From Planctomycetota bacterium (lineage in GTDB: Bacteria > Planctomycetota > Planctomycetia > Planctomycetales > Planctomycetaceae): DNA of 50,768 bases. This document shows positions 11,237 through 43,363 of this stretch, in pieces. The notes beneath the pieces are model-generated. The model made no database searches. It saw only the letters and a program-made list of their open reading frames with translations, and had not been told where the DNA came from. The translations under genes were made by a program, and so were the position numbers. The stretch lies in the NCBI GenBank assembly GCA_003669615.1, contig QWOO01000244.1, forward strand, positions 1 to 50,768. Direction: 5' to 3'. The stretch's first letter is position 1, and every line of letters begins with the position of its first letter.

Positions 11237-12415
11237 TCAATACGGCGGAAGCAGTCGGCGAAAGCCGTGGAGGAGAACGATCGGAAGAAATACGAAGACG
11301 TTTCGTATCAGGCGATAGCAATACGAATCAAACTCAAGCAGCCTCGCTGGCCACTGCTCAGGGATTTCAAGAAGTTGTCCGAGCATCTCAAAAATCGCTT
11401 GTGGCTCGGTCAACGTTTCCTTCCATACTGACGGAATCGCCTGCGCGCCAACAGCTGCTCCCACAATGCCGCCCACGATTGCGGCAGTTGTATCTGCATC
11501 ACCGCCACATTCGATCACGCAACGCACCGATTGTTCAAGATCATCCGTGAAAGACAACCACGCATGAAGACACACGGGAACAGTGTGATACATGTATCCC
11601 GTGACTCCTTTGGCCAGTCCAAGTGAGATGGCAAAATCCTGCGTCGACTGACCGGATTCAACGGACTCAACACACTGCGACATCAGTGACAACAATTCCC
11701 CAGCGTCCGATGGCAGATGTTCCGCAGCAAGTTTCAGAAACCTGCGCCCTGTGATCTCGCGGTCTCTTGCGGCAAGATGCGCGGCAAGAGCCACGACGAA
11801 GGCGCCGTATTCGGCCTTTGGGTCGGAGTGAGTCATTCGAGTCGAACATCGCACGAAGGACTTAAGGTCATCGATTTCGTCGAGAACCGTACCTAGAATC
11901 GGAGCTCTCATGGCCGGGCCGTTGCCCGCAGAAAACACTCCGCTCGTTGCCGGCGACCATCCCAACCACAGCTTGAGAATCGATCGAAGTGTGGCGAATC
12001 CGATCCCAGCCGGAATCGAAGCCAGCCACCACCTCAACTGTCGCGACAAGGATGCTTCGAACCACTCGAGTTCAAAGTGGTGACGAGAGTCGTCACTTCG
12101 GTGGAGCCAGGGTTTCGTCGCCCGAAATCCCTCCCATCGCTCCGACTTTGCCACAGCGGACATTTCGGCACCATCGTCCGGCGAATCGGGCCTGCGCCTG
12201 GCTCGGAGCAACCCGGCCGCCGTCAAACGAGCATGATCGGTGTCATCAGAAACCATTCCGCGTCCGAACCAGAAACGATAACGGTCGGGTGGCCCCAGCA
12301 TTCGCTTCGCACGCTGCGGCGACAGCCCTTCGTATGGCAACCCCAACGCGTCGCCAATAGCCGTGCCAAGAAGGCTTCCGTTGATGCGATCCGCTCGCAA
12401 GCACCAGTCATCCAT
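11237..12415 (-). CDS. ADP-ribosylglycohydrolase family protein
   Basis: This family removes ADP-ribose from modified proteins or small molecules using two Mg2+ ions. The sequence shows the N-terminal GSLLGTAIGDALGLPYEG, the metal-binding SDDTDH, SAGNGPAMRAPILG, MTHSDPKAEYGA and the C-terminal metal motif GGDADTTAAIVGGIVGA. At 392 residues it is a little longer than common DraG-like members. ATG 12415 is chosen; a GTG nine bases upstream is also possible. It stands alone, with its 3' end facing the DUF4340 gene. The substrate is not evident. Confidence 0.88.
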   Translation of the reverse strand: MDDWCLRADRINGSLLGTAIGDALGLPYEGLSPQRAKRMLGPPDRYRFWFGRGMVSDDTDHARLTAAGLLRARRRPDSPDDGAEMSAVAKSERWEGFRATKPWLHRSDDSRHHFELEWFEASLSRQLRWWLASIPAGIGFATLRSILKLWLGWSPATSGVFSAGNGPAMRAPILGTVLDEIDDLKSFVRCSTRMTHSDPKAEYGAFVVALAAHLAARDREITGRRFLKLAAEHLPSDAGELLSLMSQCVESVESGQSTQDFAISLGLAKGVTGYMYHTVPVCLHAWLSFTDDLEQSVRCVIECGGDADTTAAIVGGIVGAAVGAQAIPSVWKETLTEPQAIFEMLGQLLEIPEQWPARLLEFDSYCYRLIRNVFVFLPIVLLHGFRRLLPPY

Positions 12416-12843
12416 CAGACCCACCCCGGATAAGAGTCATGCTCTGTCAGTGCCATACACTTTGCGAGTTTGGTGATACCAAAACCCGATGCTATTGTCT
12501 TTTTCTTTCTGCCGTTCGCCTCGACGGAGTAGCTCTCCATTCCGGCTAAGCACTTGCATCAAGCTCGGCGACAGAATTGAGACCACTCAATCACGAAACA
12601 TGATGTGAACAAAAAAACACATTCATAGTGTGTGGTGATAATGACTCAGGCACCAGTGCCCATTAAAGAAACAGGCACTGGCGGTGGGTCAGTTGAGCAA
12701 TTGAGAAGTTTGGGTCCTTGATGAATGCATTCTGGGATTTTGCCGAAAGCCGTCTATAACGCAGTTGATATGGAACCGCGGTGACGGATCTGAACCTATC
12801 AAATTTGCTTCTTCATTGATGTAACTTCAGCCGGAGCGATCAG
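12416..12843. other. Intergenic region without recognised gene
   Basis: A 428-base divergent region. The only structure noticed is CAGTGCC near 12655 pairing with GGCACTG about 13 bases later, followed by no T-run. No open reading frame of credible quality was found. It should contain promoters for both flanking genes. Confidence 0.4.
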
Positions 12844-13377
12844 ATGATCTCATCAGGAAGTAGTGGTCGATTTCCCAAATGGCATCGCACGTTGCTGAAA
12901 GCGGCCGCCGTTTATAACCTCGTTTGGGGGGCAGTGGCGATCGCGTTTCCTATGCTGCTCTTCAAACTGGTAGGTATGGATCCGCTGCCCAACTATCCTG
13001 AGCTGTGGCAGTGCATCGGAATGATTGTGGGCGTTTATGGTATTGGCTACTGGATTGCCGCCAGCGACCCGGTCCGTCATTGGCCGATCGTGCTTGTGGG
13101 CCTTCTGGGAAAGATCTTTGGGCCGATTGGATTCGTTCAAGCGGTACTTGCAGACCGATTCCCGCTCGCGATGGGACTTACGATTCTCACCAACGACCTG
13201 ATCTGGTGGGTTCCATTTTCCCTTATTTTGCTGAACGCCAAACACCAGGAATTCGCTGACGCAACCGGCGTGGAAGAGTCGCCAGGGCTTCCACCGAACG
13301 CCCTGTTGCGTCGCGACAGTGCTCAGCGAAGCAAGATTGTGTACTCCTCACTGCAGGGCGCTGTTTCCGATAAATAA
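12844..13377 (+). CDS. Small integral membrane protein, unknown function
   Basis: A 177-residue protein with four predicted membrane helices: AVYNLVWGAVAIAFPMLLF, CIGMIVGVYGIGYWIAA, WPIVLVGLLGKIFGPIGFV and ILTNDLIWWVPFSLILL. A short soluble tail follows. A CGGAG-like ribosome binding sequence precedes ATG 12844. I recognise no named family with confidence. It is monocistronic and convergent with the DUF1549/DUF1553 gene. Confidence 0.6.
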   Translation: MISSGSSGRFPKWHRTLLKAAAVYNLVWGAVAIAFPMLLFKLVGMDPLPNYPELWQCIGMIVGVYGIGYWIAASDPVRHWPIVLVGLLGKIFGPIGFVQAVLADRFPLAMGLTILTNDLIWWVPFSLILLNAKHQEFADATGVEESPGLPPNALLRRDSAQRSKIVYSSLQGAVSDK

Positions 13378-13603
13378 ACGGCCACAGCATTCAGATGACG
13401 GGGACCAGTTTTCCGAACAGCAGCATTGCGGTTCTTAAACTCGAACAGCGCGCTTTCAGAGTTTCTGGCATCTGATTTGGAAGCCCTAACACAACCGGAA
13501 CGGGATTCGTGAGAGTTCATGAACCCCGTCCGAATTGTCACGAATCCGGCGTGAGCAAAAGTTCTAACAGGCAGTCTTAGCAGCATCAGTGCAACGGCCG
13601 ACA

Positions 13604-24424: not shown

Positions 24425-25010
24425 GACGAAGAAACTACTTTTGAGGCGACCAAAGGAGCCATCATCGCCCAGCAAAGGCGACGAACTGACTGACGCAAGT
24501 CCTTGACAGTCAAGGACTTCCACCGCAAACCCACGCAAAACGCGAGCCGCTGTCCGCTCTGCGCGCAGAACGGGCCGGAAAAATCGAAACGCGGATGATA
24601 CCGCCACCCCAACTCGCTGACAAGCCGTTCGTTGGGATTGCCCGCGTTTGGATCGAATTCTGGTGCAGCCGACAGCTCGGCCGCCAGAGACTGCCAATGA
24701 ATCGCACCCCGAAGCCGCAATTTTGACGGTTCGAGCTTCCCAGACAGCGGGGAACAAAGGGGCGAAACAATAGAGACTTATCACAACCCGAAGCGTCAGC
24801 GAGGGATTTTCCGAAACACTGCGGAAAGGCAAAATTGCAACCCCTCGCTGACGCGTCGGGTTGGGATAGTCGCAAACGCGCACCTTCAAAACTGAAGCTT
24901 CGCGTATTGACGAACCATCCACGGCTCAGGCAGCGAAAGGCCCGTGCTGCACCCGCGTCCAGGCCCACACAATCGGCAATATTGTCAACTCCGACAGAAA
25001 CACGCCCCCT
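24425..25010. other. Intergenic region upstream of ffh with palindromic repeat
   Basis: A 586-base region with no recognised gene, although several frames stay open across it because it has few stops. It contains the 22-bp inverted repeat at 24784-24863 and should include the promoter for ffh. The frame of the downstream ATPase-like ORF is also open upstream of its TTG, so the 5' end of that ORF is uncertain. Confidence 0.5.
24784..24863. repeat. Palindromic element 1 (22-bp arms)
   Basis: The arms at 24784-24805 and 24842-24863 are inverted repeats with one mismatch in 22 bases. The core of each arm reads AGCGTCAGCGAGGG or its close variant. The loop is 36 bases. The arm sequence has the same layout as element 2 (37869-37936), with GCGYCAGCGAG shared. 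From memory this type is common in planctomycete intergenic regions. Confidence 0.85.
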
Positions 25011-26777
25011 TTGACTGCTCCGGAGATACGCACGAGCAAGTCGTTGAAAGAACTGGATGTCCGGTTTGAACATCTGAAGCAACAGGGTGACGTCGCGCGG
25101 CTTCTTGATGAAACAAAAGAAGACAAGGCGCTCGCGCCACTTTTTGTTGCCGCCTTGAAATGCCTGACCATCGAACATCGGGATTCTATACCCGGGAATG
25201 TCGACACAATTGTTGAGCAGGATTTTCCGGGTGCCGCAAACTCGCGACCGTTGCATGCACGACTGCGTTTGGTTTTTCATGATGAGAATGGACGAGAAGA
25301 ACACTACTGCGTTCGGGGCATTGAATGGGCGAATGCACGGGCGTATCAGAACCGTCTCACCGCGGCGATAACGCAGTCAGGCATCGACAGAAAGCTGCAG
25401 TTCCGTCGACTGACGATCGCTCGCACTTCTCCGTCTCCCGGGGGAGACAAAACGGCGGAGATCAATCAGAATTTTGTCAATGCCGGCGGACAATTCCATA
25501 AAGCATCAGAGACAGAACTGAGAACGCTTTCAGCGTTGAGTCATCTTCTGTCCGAAAATGATACGCTGCTGGATACATGGCTGCAAAATCGAAAGCCAGT
25601 TTCAACCCTGAAAGAGCTGGTTAACCGACTTGTGCGGGGATCTCTATTCGTCGAAGTGAAGCCTGTTTCGGGCACTGAGGGAACCTCTCGAACGACCGCG
25701 GGCGAAAGCCGCATGGATGACGCGGAGGCGGCTGCCGTTCAGCCGTCCGAACCGCCAGCTTTGTCCAAAGCTGAAGGTCCGGCTCAGCCCGATGATTCCC
25801 TGATACTTCCACCCGCCGTTAACACAAAGGCTCTGCTCCTTCCCCTTGGAACTCGCGTCCAGTCCTTTGGTGATCCTGAACTGATCCAGATTCCGGCTGG
25901 TGTGTTGGCAAAACACACGATCATCATGGGAGGCGCAGGTTCCGGAAAAACAGTAACCGTTCGCAGAATCGTCGAAGAAGCGGCACTTGCTGGCATCCCA
26001 TCGATTGTCATCGATTGCGCTCAGGACATGTCGACATTCGATGAAGCTCGCAAATCGGCCGATCCCCATTGGCGCGCCGGCGATGCGGAACGAGCGAAAC
26101 GATTTGCCGCTGCAACCGATTTCGTTGTCTACACACCCGGTAAGTCTGCTGGACGGCCTCTGACGCTTGAACCCATTCCGGACTTGACCCCATTGAGAGA
26201 GGACGCGGATGAACTCGAGTCGGCTGTGGCGATGGTACACGGCGCTCTTGCTTCTGTGGTTGCGTCCGGCAGATCGCAAAGGGCTCAAAGCAAGCTGGGA
26301 ATCCTCACAAACACTCTGACGTTCTTCGCCAAACACGTGTCGAAAACATCTCTGCCGGCTCTCATTGAACTTTTGAATGAACTCCCGGAGCAGGCACTGT
26401 TGGGCATTGCGAATGAACGAAAGCTGGCCCGGGAAATGGCCGATGCCCTACGCATCGAACTCGTTGGCAATCCGCTGTTAAAAGGATCAGGGACCCCGCG
26501 ATCTTGTTTGGTGATGACAAACCGAACGGCCGCACTCGCATTTCCTCCATCAGCCTGGTCGGTCTTTCACAGGATCTGGTGGGCCATCACAACATTGACA
26601 ACTGTGGGATACGGAGACGTCTATCCGATCACAACAGGCGGTCGCATGTTTACCTTCCTGGTGCTGTTCGCCGGACTTGGAATCGTCTCCGTCCCTGCCG
26701 GCCTTGTCTCAGCCGCACTGCTGCGAGCAAGATCGATGGAGGCCGATGAAAAATCAGGCAACGAACTGCCGAAATGA
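25011..26777 (+). CDS. Chimeric ORF: HerA-like ATPase segment joined to K+ channel pore
   Basis: A 588-residue frame, TTG start, 5' end uncertain. Residues 1-240 are an unassigned domain. Residues about 270-490 resemble a HerA/DUF87-type ATPase, with Walker A GGAGSGKT at 307-314 and LTLEPIPDLTPL. Residues about 516-575 are the pore half of a K+ channel: WWAITTLTTVGYGDVYP carries the selectivity filter TVGYGD (531-536) and is followed by an inner helix, FLVLFAGLGIVSVPAGL. The Walker B/DEAQ half of the ATPase is missing. Residues 493-515 read a HerA-like segment in the wrong frame. This is most likely the product of a deletion that fused two genes, with an additional frame slip; a functional fusion cannot be excluded. 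Confidence 0.7.
   Translation: MTAPEIRTSKSLKELDVRFEHLKQQGDVARLLDETKEDKALAPLFVAALKCLTIEHRDSIPGNVDTIVEQDFPGAANSRPLHARLRLVFHDENGREEHYCVRGIEWANARAYQNRLTAAITQSGIDRKLQFRRLTIARTSPSPGGDKTAEINQNFVNAGGQFHKASETELRTLSALSHLLSENDTLLDTWLQNRKPVSTLKELVNRLVRGSLFVEVKPVSGTEGTSRTTAGESRMDDAEAAAVQPSEPPALSKAEGPAQPDDSLILPPAVNTKALLLPLGTRVQSFGDPELIQIPAGVLAKHTIIMGGAGSGKTVTVRRIVEEAALAGIPSIVIDCAQDMSTFDEARKSADPHWRAGDAERAKRFAAATDFVVYTPGKSAGRPLTLEPIPDLTPLREDADELESAVAMVHGALASVVASGRSQRAQSKLGILTNTLTFFAKHVSKTSLPALIELLNELPEQALLGIANERKLAREMADALRIELVGNPLLKGSGTPRSCLVMTNRTAALAFPPSAWSVFHRIWWAITTLTTVGYGDVYPITTGGRMFTFLVLFAGLGIVSVPAGLVSAALLRARSMEADEKSGNELPK
26492..26578 (+). pseudogene. Out-of-frame HerA-like segment inside the chimera
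   Basis: In the frame beginning at 26492 the sequence reads DPAILFGDDKPNGRTRISSI and continues SLVGLSQDL. This matches, from memory, the DPG.L......RISVIS.IGL segment that follows the central part of HerA-like ATPases. The main ORF reads these bases in a different frame. Homology stops at about 26578, where the channel pore begins. Confidence 0.65.
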
Positions 26778-41959: not shown

Positions 41960-43363
41960 TCATCCTGATTTCACCGCTTGGGCCGCATTGTTGGTGGCAT
42001 TGGCAATCGCAATCGGGTCGTCGAGTACTTCACTCGCGTTGCGGCCGGTGAGGTCGGCGGCCAGGTTGGCCAGAGTCGCTGTACATGCGGCATTGATGGC
42101 TTCCTTCTGGGCCGTAGTCATCGCAGCGATGGCACTGTGTTCTCGCAACAGCGCAAAGCCCGTGGCCGAAGTCGATGCGATCAGATTGACGCCTATCGAC
42201 GCCACCACATATGCATGGACTGCATCCACCGCGTCATTCGATGCCGTCAGTGACGCATCAATGCTGGTGTTCGCAAACGTCAGGTCCGCCGCAGCCCTCA
42301 CCTGCACCCACGCCTGACTGGCCAATGCGGACGCAATCTCAGCAATCGCCTCAGCACCCGCCATCGCTTTCGCTGCGGTGGTCGCCGCTGTCGCTTCTTC
42401 GGCGGTGGCTGTTAAAGCATGACCAACACTCGCTATGACGCGAGCTTCCGCGGCATCCGCCTGAGCGTCAGACTCCGCCTTGGCCGCCGTCGCGACGCTG
42501 GTGACGTACGTTATCAGTGCCGTCATTCCCGTGCTGGCAGCAGACGATTCGGCCGTCGCGCTGGTGAGTGCAAACTGCTGCCACGCTGTCGCAACGTTCA
42601 ACGTCGCCTGTGAAACGGACGTGCCGGATGTGGCGACTGAGAACACAGCATTCGCGACAGAGTTGGTCCATGCCACCGCTGCGGAACCCAGCGACGACAG
42701 GAAGTTGGCGACATCAGTGGCTTGTCCAATCGCAAGTGCAACACTCGCCGACGAAATTGCTTTGGCTTCTGTCGTCTGGGCTGATGCACTGGACACGATG
42801 AACGTGCCTTCGGCCTGCGCGAGTGCGTTTGTCAATCCTTCGTTGGCATCAATAACGGAGACTGCTTTGGCGAGGGAAGCGGCTGTATCGCCGATGGCGT
42901 AGGATGCCGCCGCGTTGACAATCGCAATCGTGCGATCCTTGTTCGCAGCAGCGATTGCAATGGCATGCGTTGCATTGGCGGCTTTGTCAAAGACCTGCTT
43001 GGCTCCAGCTTTGGCGATCTCGGCAATCGCACGATATCCGTTGATCACGATCTGATAAGTCGCGTTTTCGGTGGCCAGTTGTCGCAGGTAATTGGCCTTG
43101 TGATCGGCATCCCTCAGAGCCTGGGCTTTTGCCGCGTTCGCTCGTGCGACCGCCAAAGCATTGTCCGCCGTGTTGATCGTTCGATCACGCGTCGTGTCGG
43201 CCGGACGTTCACTGGTAACAAAGGCCACGGTCGAAGCGCCGTCCGCGGCAGTCTTCGCGACTCCTGCGAAGCCGACATCAATGGCATATTGCTTAGCCGC
43301 ATTGTACAGGATCGATGGATCTCCCATGCCCATCATGCCGGCCATGGCGCCGGTGTACGACAT
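41960..43363 (-). CDS. Ala-rich low-complexity protein, probably a fragment of a larger protein
   Basis: A 467-residue, mainly helical frame with alanine at nearly every third position, plus Ser, Thr, Val and Ile (for example VAWTNSVANAVFSVATSG and ATAAKAESDAQADAAEARV). No signal peptide is visible. The frame stays open upstream past ATG 43363, reading CCDINYWMSYTGAM before a TGA 60-70 bases higher, so the start is unclear. Long planctomycete surface proteins carry similar Ala-rich helical repeats (from memory); this may be a piece of one. Long frames on the other strand are artefacts of composition. Confidence 0.5.
   Translation of the reverse strand: MSYTGAMAGMMGMGDPSILYNAAKQYAIDVGFAGVAKTAADGASTVAFVTSERPADTTRDRTINTADNALAVARANAAKAQALRDADHKANYLRQLATENATYQIVINGYRAIAEIAKAGAKQVFDKAANATHAIAIAAANKDRTIAIVNAAASYAIGDTAASLAKAVSVIDANEGLTNALAQAEGTFIVSSASAQTTEAKAISSASVALAIGQATDVANFLSSLGSAAVAWTNSVANAVFSVATSGTSVSQATLNVATAWQQFALTSATAESSAASTGMTALITYVTSVATAAKAESDAQADAAEARVIASVGHALTATAEEATAATTAAKAMAGAEAIAEIASALASQAWVQVRAAADLTFANTSIDASLTASNDAVDAVHAYVVASIGVNLIASTSATGFALLREHSAIAAMTTAQKEAINAACTATLANLAADLTGRNASEVLDDPIAIANATNNAAQAVKSG

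Follow-up and report, generated by a model that had tools for sequence, protein, structure and literature searches.

The open frame at positions 25011–26777 (forward strand) of the window, i.e. the whole 50,768-nt stretch of DNA that was analysed, is probably a recent composite pseudogene, the debris of two broken genes, one for an ATPase and one for a K+ channel, joined by deletion. The ATPase part is cut at both ends and changes frame before its similarity ends, and the channel part consists of the last codons of a longer gene.

Content of the open frame

The frame is uninterrupted and encodes 588 aa from a TTG start. The stop-to-stop frame (24870–26774) has 635 codons, and position 25011 is merely the first TTG in it; homology begins within an interdomain linker. 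A Walker A motif, GGAGSGKT, is found at residues 307–314 (25929–25952), and the K+ selectivity filter, WWAITTLTTVGYGD, is complete. Pfam matches were obtained to DUF87 (E 8e-6) and HerA_C (E 6e-5) in the ATPase part and to Ion_trans_2 (E 2e-15) in the channel part. A preliminary description of this DNA had reported the single frame with both motifs, and all are present; its assignment of the two parts to HerA/DUF87-like ATPases and to K+ channels is upheld by Pfam and by the homologues. It had also noted that the Walker B/DEA half of the ATPase and the outer half of the channel are missing, and comparison with homologues confirms both losses. It had overlooked that the ATPase part additionally lacks the N-terminal ~400 aa, with the first P-loop domain, and an upstream partner gene.

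An ATPase remnant cut at both ends

A search of 170 genomes of the family yielded four with ATPases that align to nearly the whole of residues 4–501 at 39–42% identity, each within an open frame of 1123–1158 codons, and a sample of 392 genomes of the phylum added four homologues of 1059–1157 codons. All homologues used here are full length, with intact frames. The intact ATPases have an N-terminal AAA_22/AAA_16/BrxC-like P-loop domain and a C-terminal HerA/DUF87 domain, and the best PADLOC match of the HerA part is mad8, the ATPase of the MADS defence system. Aligned with the eight homologues (1059–1157 aa), the remnant extends over 25053–26491 (forward strand) and comprises the interdomain region and the HerA/DUF87 domain as far as its middle, Walker A motif included; residues ~15–494 correspond, at 30–42% identity, to the middle of a two-P-loop ATPase of ~1,060–1,160 aa. 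The window copy differs from these AAA(BrxC-like)-HerA proteins in lacking their first ~400 and last ~200 residues: the N-terminal P-loop AAA domain (~400 aa) is absent from the window, as are the Walker B motif (LLVIDEA in the intact family) and everything beyond it. A gene of 220–290 aa, called winged-helix-like on one sub-threshold Pfam match, precedes the ATPase gene in 8/8 homologues and is likewise absent from the window. The part that is left keeps 46 of the 47 residues invariant in the eight homologues and contains no in-frame stops.

Two candidates for further ATPase sequence were rejected. A match extended upstream to 24804 crosses stops, is unseen with most homologues and was considered spurious, and a HerA-like ORF on contig C190, examined as the missing half, is a distant paralogue.

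A channel remnant without its front half

What is left of a Kv-type K+ channel gene, its 3′ end, lies at 26559–26777 (forward strand) and, from homologue alignment and Pfam, comprises the pore helix, selectivity filter, inner helix and stop codon. Residues 517–588 (72 codons) correspond to the C-terminal end of a voltage-gated-type channel of ~250 aa, with at most 76% identity over 59 columns. The likeness to such channels (Ion_trans PF00520 / Ion_trans_2 PF07885) covers the last ~72 codons, including the filter TTVGYGD and the inner helix, whereas the window copy has neither S1–S5 nor the beginning of the pore loop; neither the S1–S4 sensor nor S5 of the six-segment channel was found in the window or the assembly. 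Of 35 residues that do not vary among 24 homologues, three are altered in the remnant, against a maximum of two in any homologue tested versus the other 23, and seven residues occur in no homologue (0–5 for the homologues themselves). The listed channel homologues have S or C where the window copy has R. A match in G317 over residues 386–582 proved on full reading to be an ordinary six-segment channel with a spurious extension.

The missing ATPase N- and C-termini and the front half of the channel were found neither in the window nor in the rest of the assembly (62% complete). Neither half can perform the function typical of its family: the ATPase half is without the Walker B/DEA motif and the remaining core, the channel half without the voltage sensor, S5 and the outer pore wall.

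A frame switch hidden within the open frame

The ATPase similarity changes frame at 26484–26494 (forward strand), where ~10 nt are missing relative to the homologues: between a K codon (26481–26483) and a D codon starting at 26492, 8 nt occupy the place of six residues (GSGTGL in L004). Eight ATPase homologues keep their frame across this site, most of them at equal length. The L004 homologue reads on as ...LRGSGTGLDPAILFGD...TRISVISLAWL..., whereas after LLKGSG the ORF frame gives unrelated residues and another frame reads DPAILFGDDKPNGRTRISSISLVGL. This continuation of the ATPase coding sequence, at 26492–26566 (forward strand), matches residues 923–948 of L004 (65% identity, E 3.6e-4) and L006 (60% identity, E 1.7e-5), and its codon-position G+C, over what is a short stretch, fits the alternative frame.

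Channel similarity begins at ~26559 (SVFH), so that ATPase (VGL) and channel (SVF) similarity both hold over 26559–26566 (forward strand). These ~8 shared bases mark the probable deletion junction, and the DNA of the channel homologue L028 has ~14 bases in common with the window there: TCGGTCTTTCACAG. Comparison with the homologues thus shows the losses, the switch of frame and the junction overlap. Since the ATPase similarity continues to 26566 in another frame, residues 495–516 are an out-of-frame rendering of ATPase DNA. The channel tail falls into the ORF frame by coincidence (1 in 3, with no stop across the 22 out-of-frame codons). Of the preliminary description's one-frame joining of ATPase and channel, the single ORF thus stands, but the ATPase DNA itself runs to ~26566 in a different frame.

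Proposed origin

In the proposed sequence of events, a two-P-loop ATPase gene would have lost its winged-helix-like partner and its first ~400 codons; a frameshifting loss of ~10 nt would have occurred in it at ~26490; and a deletion with ~8 bp of shared sequence would have joined it, at ~26559–26566, to the final 72 codons of a channel gene. We infer that these losses were deletions in the genome of the cell, in that order, and that no useful product results. The origin suggested earlier, a deletion by which an ATPase gene lost its 3′ portion and a neighbouring channel gene its 5′ portion, fits the homologues in what was lost, but the prior adjacency of the two genes at this place is presumed.

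The frame-disrupting lesion at ~26492, compared with the intact homologues, and a second decayed copy of the ATPase gene, in G048, both argue for a pseudogene. On the other side, little decay is seen in what is left of the ATPase, and the filter of the channel is intact. This low level of decay implies that the damage is recent relative to the divergence, or that part of the frame is still selected, or that the breaks are assembly errors. Bacterial pseudogenes that arise through deletion and frameshift (review: PMC11078800) are comparable in that a gene with intact counterparts in relatives is truncated, frameshifted and internally deleted; the present case differs in that two remnants happen to share one open frame, which masks the damage.

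Genomic surroundings and the integrity of the assembly

Conservation within the genus extends to ~24660, covering the ffh gene together with the ribosomal and tRNA-methylation genes behind it, and other genes lie beyond this point in relatives. Downstream of the remnant, the DUF4832 and RND pump genes are located elsewhere in the closest genomes. The remnant therefore lies in a variable stretch, since the flanking gene order past ffh differs among relatives. The interval from ffh to the ATPase remnant holds a dispersed repeat element of ~140 bp (24763–24905), which matches 52 other segments of the genome (the best 91% identical over 109 bp); some segments match in both orientations at one place, as an imperfect palindrome. 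A segment within the ORF (25756–25780), considered as a possible repeat, is single copy. Elsewhere in the window, 41960–43363 (reverse strand) encodes a 467-aa alanine-rich, low-complexity protein without significant Pfam match.

This context bears on the possibility that the contig joins reads from two intact genes or from two organisms, and that a local error in the consensus produced the frameshift. The source genome, probably that of a planctomycete to judge by its genes, is fragmented (350 contigs, 3.77 Mb, 62% complete), the ffh / DUF4832 / RND order is unlike that of the nearest relatives, a dispersed repeat lies close by, and the ATPase remnant is only slightly decayed. However, only ~8–15 bases are apparently common at the join, probably fewer than a typical misjoin in a short-read graph would need, and the loss of the ATPase N-terminus falls outside the repeat, ~100 bp downstream. 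The complementary parts are on no other contig of this incomplete assembly. We regard such an artefact as unlikely, and as less likely than a composite pseudogene.

Search for the same architecture and other readings of the frame

No ORF spanning ATPase and channel parts was found in the 170 family and 392 phylum genomes, and a scan of genome contigs gave no relative; a genuine family was therefore rejected, and the preliminary description was right to call the combination unfamiliar. No close homologue of either half was found in same-genus genomes, nor any close relative with the remnant. When the halves were searched separately, as had been proposed, intact genes were recovered for each in relatives; in the relatives checked, the ATPase and channel genes are not adjacent. 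The idea that they were ancestral neighbours was likewise dropped, no such pair being seen near the homologues checked.

The retention of 46 of 47 invariant columns could also be explained if the stretch from 25011 to ~26490, the ATPase remnant, were made by itself as a useful shortened protein, with an incidental channel tail, and G083 does have a 688-aa C-terminally truncated tandem paralogue beside an intact copy. This is very improbable: the remnant is without either complete ATPase domain and without the partner gene, and the G083 truncation retains the opposite end of the protein, the N-terminus.

An expressed fusion that attaches a fragment of a HerA-like ATPase to a K+ pore domain is scarcely credible in spite of the 588-codon open frame, the intact Walker A motif and selectivity filter and the conserved ATPase residues, for Walker B and S1–S5 are missing and the architecture occurs in no other genome searched. 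What speaks most strongly against a working fusion is that residues 495–516 are out of frame and the channel tail in frame by coincidence. The earlier suggestion that an expressed product would couple an incomplete ATPase to a pore is not supported, given the frame break, the 22 out-of-frame residues between the parts, an ATPase cut at both ends and a channel reduced to pore helix, filter and inner helix. We give hardly any weight to a young lineage-specific chimera, i.e. a deletion-fused ATPase fragment and K+ pore expressed with a new role.

The ATPase family in other genomes and implications

The gene for the 220–290-aa winged-helix-like protein (without significant Pfam match), followed by that for the AAA(BrxC-like)-HerA ATPase, forms a two-gene module in eight phylum genomes (L032–L035, L109–L112). 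In G083 (L033), the tandem ATPase paralogue at 11408–13474 ends after the middle region, without a HerA domain, and adjoins the intact copy. An independent ATPase pseudogene is present at L036 (G048:C283, 2988–4242); its pieces lie in three frames, and an internal deletion has taken out the greater part of the Walker A half of HerA.

As a probable composite pseudogene, the ORF should not carry an ATPase-channel fusion annotation and has no importance as a protein architecture. It is a clear example of how a frameshift and a deletion can leave a long open frame that mimics a novel fusion; the only sign of the damage is the lost ATPase frame, which runs on underneath the ORF. The conserved winged-helix-like and AAA-HerA module, possibly a defence or DNA-handling system and broken also in another genome, may outweigh the fusion in value.
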